Shown: positions 13,859 through 19,873 of the stretch, piece after piece | How positions within the stretch are numbered: the first letter of the stretch is position 1 | How the letters are laid out: every line of letters begins with the position of its first letter | Notes under the pieces: model-generated | Seen by the model: only the letters and a program-made list of their open reading frames with translations | What the model was told of the DNA's origin: nothing | The model's database searches: none | Position numbers and translations under genes: made by a program | Origin: Neisseria elongata subsp. elongata | GTDB taxonomy: Bacteria > Pseudomonadota > Gammaproteobacteria > Burkholderiales > Neisseriaceae | Direction of reading: 5' to 3' | Length of the DNA stretch: 64,000 nucleotides | Assembly (NCBI RefSeq): GCF_900113545.1 | Contig: NZ_FOPS01000010.1 | Span: 1 to 64,000, forward strand

Positions 13859-14000
13859 TAAGCTGTAACCCGCACCTCCGCCAATTACGTGCCACACCCA
13901 CCTAGCAAGATGCAGGGTGTGTGTGGTACGTACGCACTCGGTTTTGTCGTTACCGAATTATTCCAAACCATGCCGTAATACAGCCGGCAACAAGGGGGTA
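13859..14000. repeat. Non-coding repeat-rich spacer
   Basis: No gene is supported. CCACACCCACCTAGCAAGATGCAGGGTGTGTGTGG (13891-13925) folds as an inverted repeat. The GTGTGGTACGTACGCAC words resemble the larger inverted repeat at 19271-19360, so both may be copies of one repeat family. Confidence 0.45.
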
Positions 14001-14025
14001 TTGGGTCATGACCCAACAAAACTTA
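14001..14025. repeat. Palindrome TTGGGTCATGACCCAA, copy 1 of a direct repeat
   Basis: 14001-14016 is a perfect 16-bp palindrome. With the following CAAAACTTA it recurs at 19139-19163 with one substitution. The two copies bracket the methyltransferase, carB and AT-rich gene segment. Confidence 0.6.
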
Positions 14026-14118
14026 ATATCAAAGGCCGTCTGAAAAATAATTTTCAGGCAGCCTCTCTCTATCGAAAGCAGCCTGCACTTTCAAAAATCG
14101 AAGTGCAGGCTGCTTTTT
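14024..14118. repeat. Composite DUS element, copy 1
   Basis: Starting at TAATATC, the element has AG-DUS AGGCCGTCTGAA at 14033-14044, then TTCAGGCAGCCT at 14053-14064, whose complement AGGCTGCCTGAA is the Simonsiella-type dialect. After CTATCGA come AAGCAGCCTGCA at 14076-14087 and its exact inverse at 14104-14115, the dialect described for some Kingella. The last two form a hairpin with a following T run. A second copy lies at 14939-15031, on the other side of the methyltransferase gene. Confidence 0.75.
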
Positions 14119-14203
14119 GTGATGATTGGAAAAAACGCACACTATTTTTATACTGTATATTGTGCAGGCACACGGTGAAACAACATCACCCGAAGGAATC
14201 CCC

Positions 14204-14803
14204 ATGTTTAAGACGTTCAAAAGCATTTGGCAGGGACTCACGCAAAAAGGCAAAATCTTCCCGTATCAACTTGCATTCACGCTGCTGATTCCTTTGCGCA
14301 ACTGGGCGCTTTCGCCGCAACAAATCGTACAACGGCTGCACCTTGCACCGCACCACCGCATTTTGGAAGTAGGCTGCGGAGCGGGTTATTTCAGCCCGAC
14401 ACTGGCGCAATCGGTGCCGCAAGGACGACTGGTAGCGGCGGATATACAGCCGGAAATGTTGGCTTATACCGAAAAACGTTTGCGTCGTCGGCATATCGAC
14501 AATGTAGATTATTATCTGTGCGACGGCACGCATTTTGATTTTCCCAATCAATCGTTTGACCGCATTGTGCTGATTACCGTGTTGGGCGAAGTCTCCAACC
14601 AAACCGAATATTTGACAGAGTTCCGCAGGCTGCTTCGTGCTGACGGGCTGCTGTCGGTTTCCGAAACGGCAGGCGACCCCGATAAACCGAGCCGCGCCGA
14701 ATTGCGCGAGTTGATGCGGCAAAACGGGTTTGAGACGGCTGATGAATATGGCAGCGAACGCAATTTCACGTTGAATTTCAAAGTGTCCTGCACTGAGAGG
14801 TAG
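14204..14803 (+). CDS. Class I SAM-dependent methyltransferase
   Basis: The 199-residue product has the Rossmann methyltransferase motif I as ILEVGCGAGYFSP near residues 53-65, an acidic motif II (LVAADIQPEML), and DRIVLITVLGEV as motif III/post-I. An N-terminal amphipathic/hydrophobic stretch (PYQLAFTLLIPLRNWAL) may bind membrane. The family includes UbiE-like and lipid methyltransferases, so the substrate is unknown. The ATG at 14204 with GAAGGAATC upstream was chosen over an in-frame ATG at 14126. The gene lies between two copies of a composite repeat and is less GC-rich than neighbouring core genes. Confidence 0.75.
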   Translation: MFKTFKSIWQGLTQKGKIFPYQLAFTLLIPLRNWALSPQQIVQRLHLAPHHRILEVGCGAGYFSPTLAQSVPQGRLVAADIQPEMLAYTEKRLRRRHIDNVDYYLCDGTHFDFPNQSFDRIVLITVLGEVSNQTEYLTEFRRLLRADGLLSVSETAGDPDKPSRAELRELMRQNGFETADEYGSERNFTLNFKVSCTER

Positions 14804-14808
14804 TGCAG
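14788..14808. repeat. Small inverted repeat at the methyltransferase stop
   Basis: CTGCACT, 7-base loop, AGTGCAG spans the stop codon. It lacks a T run, so termination is uncertain. The region 14809-14938 beyond it shows no gene. Confidence 0.35.
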
Positions 14809-14938
14809 CAAACCACAACCTGCATACCCATAAACCATGAGCATGGTTTTTGCCACACATTCTATTTTTGGTGATTTCCTAAATAAACAGGTCAATATAG
14901 GCTGGAATGATGAACCGACCAAGACTTCATATCACCTG

Positions 14939-15031
14939 TAATATCAAAGGCCGTCTGAAAGATGATTTTCAGACGGCTTTTCACTATCGAAAACAGCCTG
15001 CACTCGTTAAACCGGAATGCAGGCTGTTTGC
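14939..15031. repeat. Composite DUS element, copy 2
   Basis: TAATATC, AG-DUS at 14948-14959, inverse DUS TTCAGACGGC at 14967-14976, CTATCGA, then AAACAGCCTGCA at 14991-15002 and TGCAGGCTGTTT at 15018-15029. Order and spacing match copy 1 at 14024-14118 with scattered substitutions. Its hairpins follow the carB stop on the minus strand and may terminate carB. Confidence 0.7.
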
Positions 15032-15141
15032 AGATATTTGAACTCTATGCGTCCAATCAGGCATATCGGGAAGTATGCCGGCTTAGCGGACAGGCAAGGC
15101 AGACAATTAAAAGGCTGGTTGCTGCTTTGCTTCCAAACACC

Positions 15142-18100: not shown

Positions 18101-18357
18101 ATCGCATCAGGCCGCTCCTTGGCGATAATCTTCTCCACCGTCTGCCACATAATCGGCTCGATGTAGGTAACATCCGCCATTTCAGGGTCGGTCATGATGG
18201 TGGCGGGGTTGGAATTCACCAGAATGACTTTATAGCCTTCTTCACGCAAAGCCTTGCAGGCCTGTGCGCCCGAATAGTCAAATTCGCAGGCCTGACCGAT
18301 AACGATAGGGCCGGCGCCGATGATAAGGATGGATTTTAGGTCGGTACGTTTGGGCAT
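15142..18357 (-). CDS. carB: Carbamoyl-phosphate synthase large subunit
   Basis: The 1071-residue subunit makes carbamoyl phosphate for arginine and pyrimidine synthesis. The duplicated ATP-grasp halves are evident: [21 protein letters not shown] at the N-terminus and [19 protein letters not shown] near residue 555, with [16 protein letters not shown] and [16 protein letters not shown] as paired motifs. The C-terminal allosteric domain follows. A 12-mer AGGCAGCCTGCA at 16931-16942, close to Kingella-type DUS, encodes AGCLQ in the oligomerisation region. The small-subunit gene carA is not in the window. An AT-rich membrane protein gene lies 30 bases upstream on the same strand. Confidence 0.97.
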
Positions 18358-18387
18358 GGTGGGTCTTTCTTTAAAAATAATAAGTTT

Positions 18388-19101
18388 TTATTTGCCAGTT
18401 TCCTGTTGTTTTTTTCGATATTCTGCCCTTGTATTTAGTGCAGCTCGTAATTCTGGATTGTTGGAAGGGGATAAGTTTTGAATTTTTCCTCCTTTCCATA
18501 TTTTTATTTTGTCATATAAGGATTTTATTTCTGAATAATATGCCTCTTTTTTGTTTAATTCCTCTGATTTGTTTTGTAATTCCAATTTTATTTTATCTAT
18601 GTCTTTATTCAAGTTATCTATGTCTTTATTCAAGATAACTAATTTGTCTTCAAGCATAGAAGACAATGTTATTCTTTCTTCATCTGTAAATAAGTAAATT
18701 CCATCATATATCATGGAGCACATTGTATAATAAGCTACCCGATTTCCTGCAAACAGGATGAGAGAATTTATTGAAATAAAGGAAATATTACTCCCTGATA
18801 CTGCACTGGTAATAAACAAAAGAATAAAGAATAAAAAATAAAGAAGCAATTTGATAATTTTTCTTCTAGAAAATATTTGTAACAGATACTCCGCTACTCC
18901 TGTTAAAAGTCCAGTAACGAAAATAATGAAATAAGATATTTCATTATTTTTTTCTAAAAAAAATTCTTCAAGTATTGCAAATGAGAAAACAAGGAAAAAT
19001 AAGGATACAAAAAATATAGTTCCATTTTTCTCTGACTCAAGTTTTGTGATTTTCTTTTTTAAATTTTCTATGAATTTATTTTTTTTGCTGGAATTTGTCA
19101 T
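18388..19101 (-). CDS. AT-rich membrane protein with a C-terminal coiled coil
   Basis: The 237-residue product has a lysine-rich N-terminus, four hydrophobic helices (about residues 28-48, 55-78, 84-104 and 106-128) and a long coiled coil around 150-195 built on LNKDIDN/LNKDIDK heptads. A 21-bp exact tandem duplication (18593-18634) encodes two of these heptads. Codon use is extremely AT-rich and no DUS is present, so it is probably acquired DNA. It lies directly upstream of carB in the same direction and may share its transcript. No family is recognised. Membrane plus coiled-coil layout is compatible with a phage or defence accessory protein, but nothing proves that. Confidence 0.7.
   Translation of the reverse strand: MTNSSKKNKFIENLKKKITKLESEKNGTIFFVSLFFLVFSFAILEEFFLEKNNEISYFIIFVTGLLTGVAEYLLQIFSRRKIIKLLLYFLFFILLFITSAVSGSNISFISINSLILFAGNRVAYYTMCSMIYDGIYLFTDEERITLSSMLEDKLVILNKDIDNLNKDIDKIKLELQNKSEELNKKEAYYSEIKSLYDKIKIWKGGKIQNLSPSNNPELRAALNTRAEYRKKQQETGK
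18593..18634. repeat. 21-bp exact tandem duplication
   Basis: TTATCTATGTCTTTATTCAAG occurs twice in a row without mismatch inside the AT-rich gene. Each unit is seven codons, exactly one coiled-coil heptad, so copy-number change would lengthen or shorten the coil in frame. Confidence 0.8.
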
Positions 19102-19130
19102 TTAATTAGTCCTAACAAGTATATGTAGCA

Positions 19131-19206
19131 AGCGTAGGTTGGGTCATGACTCAACAAAACTTATCAAATTATCTGTTAAACGTTGGGTTTGCCAACCCAA
19201 CCTACC
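19131..19206. repeat. Inverted repeat GTAGGTTGGGT / ACCCAACCTAC
   Basis: GTAGGTTGGGT at the left and ACCCAACCTAC at the right enclose a second copy of the 14001-14025 palindrome (19139-19163, TTGGGTCATGACTCAA) and CGTTGGGTTTGCCAACCC. It looks like a small non-coding mobile or REP-type repeat. Confidence 0.55.
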
Positions 19207-19270
19207 AAATATCGTCTGAAATCTGACGGTTTGTTTTTACTGCCAGCGCGTAGCAAGCCGTAGCCTGCAT

Positions 19271-19360
19271 GTAGGGCGTGTGCGGTACGCACGCACGCGT
19301 TCTCCATTTTCCCTGCAACTCCAACCACCGCGTGCGTGCCTTGCGGCACACACCCTACCG
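19271..19360. repeat. Long imperfect inverted repeat (MITE-like)
   Basis: GTAGGGCGTGTGCGGTACGC at the left matches the inverse of GCGGCACACACCCTAC at the right, with ACGCACGCG / CGCGTGCGT inside, around a loop of about 40 bases. It has no ORF. Similar words near 13900 suggest a dispersed repeat family. Confidence 0.5.
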
Positions 19361-19364
19361 ATGG

Positions 19365-19873
19365 GTTTAAAAGTCGTCTGAAAAAACGCTCGCGGCGTTT
19401 GTTCCATCTGCCTTGCGATAAAGGCTACCTGAAAAATTCCTGCTGTTGATGTTTCGGGCATTCTTTTTTCAGACGGCCTGCAACGCTTGAATCCGCTGCA
19501 ATCTGCTCCCTCCCCTGTGGGGGAGGGCTGGGGAGAGGGCATTCTCCAAGTTGCGGCAACCTTTCTCAATTCCCGAACCGCCTAAAATACAAGCCTTGCG
19601 GCTTGTTGCCCTCTCTCTAGCTCTCTCCCACGGGGAGAGAGGACGGGGTGGCTGTTGGGATTAAGGTTTGCTGTAATGGAGGCAAATTGTGCAGGCTGCT
19701 TTTTGCTGTTCAGACGGCCTTTTAAACGCTTACTTCAGGCAGCTTGCACGCCATAATCTTCAAAAAACAATCAAAATCAGCCGTCTGCTAATGTGCAGGC
19801 TGCTTTTCATTCCTGCCTCCGCGCTCCGCCATTATACGCCCAACGCCGCCGGTTCCGGCCGTCTGAAACGGGT
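19365..19873. other. Non-coding stretch with mixed DUS dialects and REP-like hairpins
   Basis: No gene is supported. AGGCTACCTGAA at 19422-19433 equals the Eikenella-type DUS; TGCAGGCTGCTT at 19690-19701 and 19794-19805 is the inverse of AAGCAGCCTGCA (Kingella type). Ordinary AG-DUS cores occur near 19470, 19707 and 19858. CTCCCTCCCCTGTGGGGGAG at 19505-19524 and GCTCTCTCCCACGGGGAGAG near 19620-19640 are two REP-like purine/pyrimidine hairpins flanking TGCGGCAACC and a short spacer. Confidence 0.55.

Follow-up and report, generated by a model that had tools for sequence, protein, structure and literature searches.

DNA uptake sequence dialects around carB of Neisseria elongata: old slots, a recombinant carB end and two-dialect DNA shared with another genus

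The locus and its uptake sequences

The DNA considered here is a stretch of 64,000 nucleotides of Neisseria elongata subsp. elongata (the window), which starts at base 1 of contig 2 in a genome of 2,360,727 bp and 23 contigs (G000). The segment under study, 13900..19860 of the window (5,961 bp), carries DNA uptake sequences (DUS) of several dialects. Its genes are a class I S-adenosylmethionine methyltransferase gene (Methyltransf_25/11; 14204..14803, plus strand), lying between two blocks of hairpins, and carB, encoding the carbamoyl-phosphate synthase large subunit (15142..18357, minus strand). An AT-rich open reading frame (ORF; 18388..19101, minus strand) stands directly upstream of carB, and a repeated intergenic element (19252..19816, unstranded) follows near the right end. 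To the left of the segment lies alaS (10203..13130, plus strand). Sequences were searched in 83 genomes, 46 of which, G000 included, belong to the genus of G000.

The dialect names are those of Frye et al. 2013 (PMC3630211), in the relevant part of which AAGCAGCCTGCA is the AA-king3DUS (king3) of K. kingae and K. denitrificans, AGGCAGCCTGAA the kingDUS, AGGCTGCCTGAA the simDUS and AGGCTACCTGAA the eikDUS. A first-pass annotation of this DNA had named a series of 12-mers of other dialects in the segment, and all of them were confirmed: AAGCAGCCTGCA at 14076 (plus), 14104, 19690 and 19794 (all minus), exact AGGCTGCCTGAA at 14053 (minus), exact AGGCTACCTGAA at 19422 (plus), and the near matches at 14991, 15018, 16931, 19371 and 19734. 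An exact eikDUS at 15431 (minus), within carB, had been overlooked. The segment thus holds seven exact non-AG sites and four AG-DUS (14033, 14948, 19468 and 19709). The remainder of the window has 89 AG sites and seven exact others, namely eik at 11393, AT at 11437, 34988 and 63580, muc at 12116, king at 50922 and sim at 50925. The last two form an overlapping king/sim dyad (50922-50936), an arrangement described for Simonsiella, which is isolated within an AG stretch of the window.

The main dialect of G000 is AG (2,809 AG-DUS), and 82 eikDUS and 64 king3DUS were counted beside it. These sites are more than chance, since the degenerate pattern ARGCWRCCTGMA has 237 matches in the genome and its reversed control only three. 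G000 has the highest count of both eik and king3 in its genus, the next being 38 eik sites (G012) and 36 king3 sites (G026). With 6-kb linkage its 146 eik and king3 sites fall into 35 clusters, the largest of which lie on contig 7 (181.8-206.7 kb, 33 sites), contig 2 (64.2-77.6 kb, 18 sites) and contig 4 (94.6-104.7 kb, 10 sites); the cluster that spans the segment (11393-19794) has seven sites and is joint fifth in size. A local excess of foreign 12-mers was also found: six king3 and eik sites stand in the 5,961 bp, where the genome mean would predict 0.37 (Poisson P 2.5e-6 under a uniform model, which overstates the significance since the sites are clustered). King3 is the main dialect in none of the 83 genomes searched, the highest count being 70 copies in G003, a genome of another genus. 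In two loci of contig 7 (L083 and L084, 178-210 kb) king3, eik, king, sim, muc and AT sites are intermixed with AG sites, and an HsdR-like type I restriction gene lies near the right end of this region.

Hairpin blocks beside the methyltransferase gene

The first block consists of an inverted pair in two dialects (14033..14064, plus strand; AG-DUS arm at 14033, simDUS arm at 14053; hairpin of -16.5 kcal/mol) and, behind it, an inverted AA-king3DUS pair with a stem extension and a T run (14076..14115, plus strand). The latter is a terminator-like hairpin, which folds at 14070-14122 with -31.1 kcal/mol (z -7.4). A second copy of the block (14927..15029, plus strand) holds an AG pair at 14948/14968, the 14968 arm being one base off AG-DUS, and then a king3-like pair, AAACAGCCTGCA, at 14991/15018. 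The fold at 14945-14982 has -21.8 kcal/mol (z -6.7); with this one included, the three pairs at 14.0-15.0 kb that were folded besides the king3 pair 14076/14104 are all stable (z -4.7 to -6.7). A folding DUS pair followed by a T run, the mark of an inverted-pair terminator, was found at 14070-14122 and at 14945-14982, and not at 19684-19745. Judged from these folds, the hairpin arms probably end transcripts.

The same DNA stands at the same place in congeners. Over 14001-14783 G026 and G031 match the window at 92-93%; in both this DNA adjoins alaS and includes the methyltransferase gene (92-93%), of which G017 has a part. In G026, G031, G017, G034 and G012, as in the window, the DNA of 13.9-14.2 kb is found on one stretch with alaS. 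Outside the genus the methyltransferase gene has no donor-like identity, the best value being 68% (G003). Of these relatives G012 is an AG-dialect genome (3,951 AG-DUS); G026, G031, G034 and G017 have 123-247 AG-DUS and muc or AT sites nearby, and the main dialect of some relatives is judged only from such low AG counts and local muc or AT sites.

Eight copies of the hairpin DNA were aligned, seven from G026, G031, G017, G034 and G012 and the second copy of the window. Each arm of the king3 hairpin (14076 and 14104) is exact king3 in six of the eight. Since the arms are kept in this way, the hairpin is likely to be older than the split of these species, or to have been passed among them. The arm at 14053, which is sim in the window, is muc in five copies, AG in two and AAGCCGTCTGAA in one. 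The pair 14033/14053 is thus muc, AG or intermediate elsewhere, and its two arms vary independently.

The layout of an other-dialect pair directly before a king3 pair recurs: it is seen at 14033-14115 and at L083:14401-14485, the leading pair being AG/sim in one case and a divergent eik pair in the other. At L091:11106 a king3 pair is flanked by a muc site on each side. A near match at 14624 falls within the methyltransferase gene.

The carB gene: a loop slot and a recombinant 3' tract

Matches to carB were found in 74 of the 83 genomes. The comparison used 24 carB genes of Neisseriaceae: that of the window, those of 22 genomes with a match and that of N. wadsworthii, the only Neisseria among the matches listed in a contig scan for carB (at least 80 loci); two outgroup genes were excluded. 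A variable loop of CarB holds, at 16928..16942 (minus strand), the dyad TGCAGGCTGCCTGCA, which contains the 10-mer core of king3 and may be the king3/king2 pair mentioned by Frye et al. This slot is occupied by a DUS of some dialect in 21 of the 24 genes. It is the dyad TGCAGGCTGCCTGCA in ten, AT-DUS or the 10-mer core common to AT and AG in five, an overlapping dyad of the AT/AG core in three (one arm being altered in N. wadsworthii), a king/sim dyad in two and simDUS in one; one gene has a decayed core and two have nothing DUS-like.

The exact eikDUS at 15431..15442 (minus strand) behaves differently, as it is present in only three of the 24 genes, those of G000, G012 and G003. G003 is a single-contig genome with 2,836 eikDUS and, from its dialect, most likely an Eikenella. 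The site, which sits in the GYLK codons of carB, belongs to a recombinant tract at 15201..15611 (minus strand). All 41 diagnostic sites, where G000, G012 and G003 have one base in common and six congeners (G034, G026, G031, G015, G029 and G044) all have another, fall within this tract, and none elsewhere in the gene, including its first 2,746 bases. Over the first 2,750 bases the window is 96.4% identical to G003 and 96.1-97.4% identical to the six congeners. Over bases 2,801-3,150, taken in 50-base steps, the congeners drop to 80-92%, while G012 stays at 94-100% and G003 at 90-100%. When 15142-15560 was searched in the 83 genomes, G012 gave 97%, G003 96% and all others at most 85%. At its 3' end carB thus carries a recombinant allele of about 0.4 kb with an eikDUS, common to G012 (the sister species) and G003, and this is the only part of the segment that looks like a lineage-specific cross-dialect allele. 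The carB tree does not resolve the clade with G000, G012 and G003, as expected for a mosaic gene, its bootstrap being unsettled.

The whole carB of the window is 96.4% identical in DNA to that of G003 over 3,153 bp, and within the G003 stretch compared the match stops at the limits of the gene. Outside the tract G003 is at least as close to the window as the congeners are, so the carB of G003 may itself derive from Neisseria. The genes downstream of carB differ among the relatives read (by eye TerC-like, pilF-like and panB), and here the alaS-methyltransferase locus takes their position, so carB appears to be in a rearranged place. The CarB of G002, from another genus, is 97% identical to that of the window over its first 469 residues and 89% over the remainder, which suggests that it is a mosaic as well.

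The carA-carB element

The intergenic region between carA and carB is variable in Neisseria. Element-like DNA adjoins carB in relatives, often in several copies; close relatives have it at 87-92% identity in the best pieces. Its place in G026, G015 and G044 is between carB and carA (the latter recognised by eye), and the element and upstream ORF of the window match the content of that interval. The difference is that a gene of a uracil/xanthine-type permease adjoins the element in G000 instead, which indicates that the locus is rearranged here.

The element has DUS slots at 19371, 19422 (eik), 19468 (AG), 19690 (king3), 19709 (AG), 19734 and 19794 (king3). In an alignment of 15 rows from nine genomes the slot 19422 is eik in six, sim in three, of another form in two and uncovered in four; 19794 is king3 in four, of another form in two and uncovered in nine. 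The pair 19422/19468 folds weakly better than shuffled sequences (z -3.1).

DNA shared with an eik-dialect genome

Alignments of at least 400 bp and at least 88% identity between G000 and G003 number 26; they cover 57.8 kb, range from 89 to 97% and have a mean identity of 94.75%. One shared stretch, a two-dialect island, starts inside the window at 63647 (63647..64000, unstranded, being its first 354 bp in the window) and extends along the contig as far as about 77.6 kb; it matches four places of G003, in four pieces, at 92-96% identity. Within the genus G039 (an 83% complete genome) matches it at 96% over the first 3.65 kb of the query, and the others, among the matches listed, at 65-83%. On contig 4 the cluster lies in DNA with NuoG and neighbours that read by eye as other nuo genes; here 12.6 kb around nuoG (L082:2206-14817) is 96.2% identical to G003, with ten AG and nine eik sites common in place. 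Six pieces of the contig 7 cluster match G003, four at 95-97% and two at 86-89%. The contig 4 and contig 7 pieces, 86-97% identical to G003, were compared with G003 alone. After G003 the best match is G004, of the genus of G003 (79-82%), for some pieces and congeners of the window for others.

In the G003 copies the same dialect stands at the same place as in G000 for 33 of 36 eik sites, 24 of 31 AG sites and 14 of 15 king3 sites; one eik site falls within two of the alignments, so that a count made per alignment takes it twice. This agreement in both copies implies that the shared DNA would have been two- or three-dialect before the copies parted. The G003 copy of the island piece on contig 2 has nine AG-DUS in 12.8 kb, where its genome mean would give 0.44 (P 1e-9), and that of G000 has seven AG sites in 12.7 kb; this piece, found by similarity alone, is the only one free of selection bias on the G003 side.

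Origin of the segment and a possible route between dialects

The probable explanation, in our judgement, is that the segment is a patchwork and not one import, composed of old slots and a recombinant carB end, with exchange of two-dialect DNA in the background. Most of its non-AG sites are old DUS slots, in hairpin arms and in a single tolerant loop of CarB; the slots are common to related species, and their dialect differs by lineage. Such slots would most likely have been filled by past exchange with Neisseriaceae of other dialects, and would be kept since a hairpin still terminates whatever its dialect. Thus a foreign-dialect 12-mer alone neither dates nor proves an import.

The further step is that genes cross the dialect barrier between Neisseria and an eik-dialect genus in both directions as two-dialect segments. 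Reasoning from sequence comparison, we offer this tentatively and give it slightly less than an even chance. Working AG and eik (or king3) DUS would lie side by side, sometimes as the two arms of one hairpin, and would be accepted by each ComP, and the two-way passage would build up both signals and lead to a shared pool of core genes. If ComP admits DNA bearing the DUS of its own cell, a two-dialect segment could enter both kinds of cell and would likely be shuttled more often than DNA of one dialect. In the transformation data of Frye et al. 2013 (PMC3630211), as far as the relevant part goes, N. meningitidis yielded no transformants with eikDUS DNA and only 0.0002 of the native rate with AG-kingDUS, and E. 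corrodens yielded none with AT-DUS DNA; exchange of one-dialect DNA between these groups should therefore be rare. Differences in DUS dialect are regarded as a strong barrier between genera, and yet G000 and an eik-dialect genome share, in the stretches compared, at least 57.8 kb at about 95%, including part of a nuo operon. If DNA with two passwords provides the way across, the barrier leaks in a predictable manner, and segments of mixed dialect would mark movable genes.

Other routes to such segments would be a donor species having both dialects, gradual acquisition of the new dialect by imported DNA as its old one decays, or uptake without DUS. None of the 83 genomes reaches 100 copies in AG and eik alike, and they therefore include no two-dialect donor species.

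Several observations weigh against our explanation. The G000 loci were picked for their eik and king3 sites, and several G003 loci for AG sites, so that overall densities are biased. The exchanged copies have AG sites at 0.54/kb, less than the 1.19/kb of the genome as a whole. Some shared segments (carB, alaS and short pieces) lack the two-dialect mix, and in the segment itself no AG site lies within the stretch shared with G003, where carB has one exact eik site. At slot 19690 exact king3 occurs in only one of the 11 covering rows, the others having one to three changes, and the pair 19690/19734 fails to fold (z 0.55). Finally, DUS-specific uptake may be slight in the strains of N. mucosa, N. 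elongata, K. oralis and E. corrodens used by Frye et al. (PMC3630211), unlike in the transformation data, so the barrier may be weaker than the transformation table suggests.

Among the alternatives the one that survives best, which we still consider unlikely, is that the hairpin AAAGCAGCCTGCAC...GTGCAGGCTGCTTTT is a dispersed terminator repeat that merely resembles king3DUS and was never used in uptake here. In the G000 loci read, C follows the first 12-mer in all eight convergent king3 pairs and the matching G precedes the second in seven of the eight; the hairpins are stable and have T runs, and matches of about 44 bp occur at many places in congeners. However, king3 also occurs often as single sites and in divergent pairs, and it accompanies eik and AG sites in the exchanged segments of G003 and G000.

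Somewhat less probable still is that several recent transfers brought in the segment, and the 12-mers with it, from donors resembling Kingella, Eikenella and Simonsiella. It is favoured by the density of foreign sites, by the 96.4% identity of carB to G003, by the carB 3' tract with its eik site and by the eik and king3 counts of G000, which top those of its congeners. On the other side, the hairpin, the element 19252-19816 and the carB loop are common to congeners, whether of AG dialect or not, and the methyltransferase gene is without donor-like identity outside the genus. The orthologous sites in congeners largely refute such import where the hairpins and the carA-carB element are concerned; an old Kingella origin of the hairpins is conceivable, the 83 genomes searched including none with king3 as main dialect. 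The first-pass annotation had read the segment as repeated import from oral relatives. That reading holds for the genome, for places beside the segment and likely for the carB end, and it fails for most of the sites listed, because non-AG sites kept in relatives without donor similarity are largely what the segment shows.

Compared with the islands rich in anDUS, the segment shares the excess of foreign dialects (seven non-AG vs four AG exact sites). Native DUS are not lacking, their density being lower, 0.67/kb as against 1.19/kb genome-wide, and there are no definable boundaries, the pieces belonging to two loci of congeners, alaS-methyltransferase and carA-carB. The identity to an other-dialect genome exceeds that to congeners in the carB 3' tract and the contig 2 island, and not in the hairpins or the element.

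A change of dialect in place, by point mutation at standing slots without any transfer, is in our view improbable. The graded forms at 14033 (AG, AAGCCGTCTGAA, AAGCTGTCTGAA, AAGCTGCCTGAA, AAGTCGTCTGAA and muc), and the sim and eik or AG and muc forms found at matching places, would be expected from it; but the dialect of the carB slot tracks a different local sequence and not single changes, and 89-97% identity to another genus requires transfer. Chance or coding coincidence, to which the sites at 15431 in the GYLK codons and at 14624 in the methyltransferase gene might point, is hardly credible, being refuted by the 237 matches vs three and also by the pairs, clusters and conservation.

The exchange proposed here resembles the peregrine DUS of Frye et al. 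2013 (PMC3630211), in the part concerned, in that a minority of other-dialect DUS are taken as traces of exchange between groups in a shared niche, inverted pairs are tied to terminators and overlapping dyads occur. Such sites were counted there; here slots and segments were followed across genomes, and two dialects were found in both partners. In the sections of Hughes-Games et al. 2020 (PMC7371117) on anDUS islands and integrative conjugative elements (ICEs), DUS of an alternative dialect likewise reveal acquired segments and hint at the donor. The large islands among them are almost exclusively of a single foreign dialect, whereas here native and foreign DUS occur together, including in core genes (nuo, fab, carB). 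A word search of the searchable part of that paper for mixed or both dialects and for Eikenella was empty, and two-dialect segments are not described in the titles and abstract openings of the papers found on DUS dialects and on Neisseria-Eikenella exchange. In the part of Treangen et al. 2008 (PMC2397512) concerned, DUS places are conserved between species, as here; the difference is that the six genomes used there, from N. meningitidis, N. gonorrhoeae and N. lactamica, are of one dialect, whereas here the place is kept and the dialect changes.

AT-rich ORFs and alaS

AT-rich genes had also been noticed in the first-pass annotation and are indeed present, though not as one imported block, since their spots hold different ORFs in the relatives read. 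This applies to the ORF upstream of carB (different ORFs in G026, G015 and G012) and to a second one, 13307-13858, downstream of alaS. Some of the relatives' ORFs at these spots resemble defence proteins (DndB/DpdB-like, HEC-05-like and PDC-M36A-like), and four of the six tested gave PADLOC matches (E up to 0.01; one weak). A defence-island reading was considered and dropped, both ORFs of the window being without a PADLOC match. The five main ORFs at 13.3-21.3 kb include no integrase or conjugation genes of an ICE (three belong to other Pfam families and two have no Pfam match).

Both ends of alaS are 94-95% identical to the alaS of G003. Its stretch 11330-11684, which holds the exact eik site at 11393 and the AT-DUS at 11437, has no match in the alaS of G026, G031, G017, G034 and G003, which have about 50 bp in its place; matches run through it in 19 other genomes of the 83. 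The alanyl-tRNA synthetase has 975 residues in G000 vs an open frame of 879 residues in G026. In G003 a cluster of seven AG-DUS (L173:6119-8244) lies at most about 3 kb from its Neisseria-like alaS.

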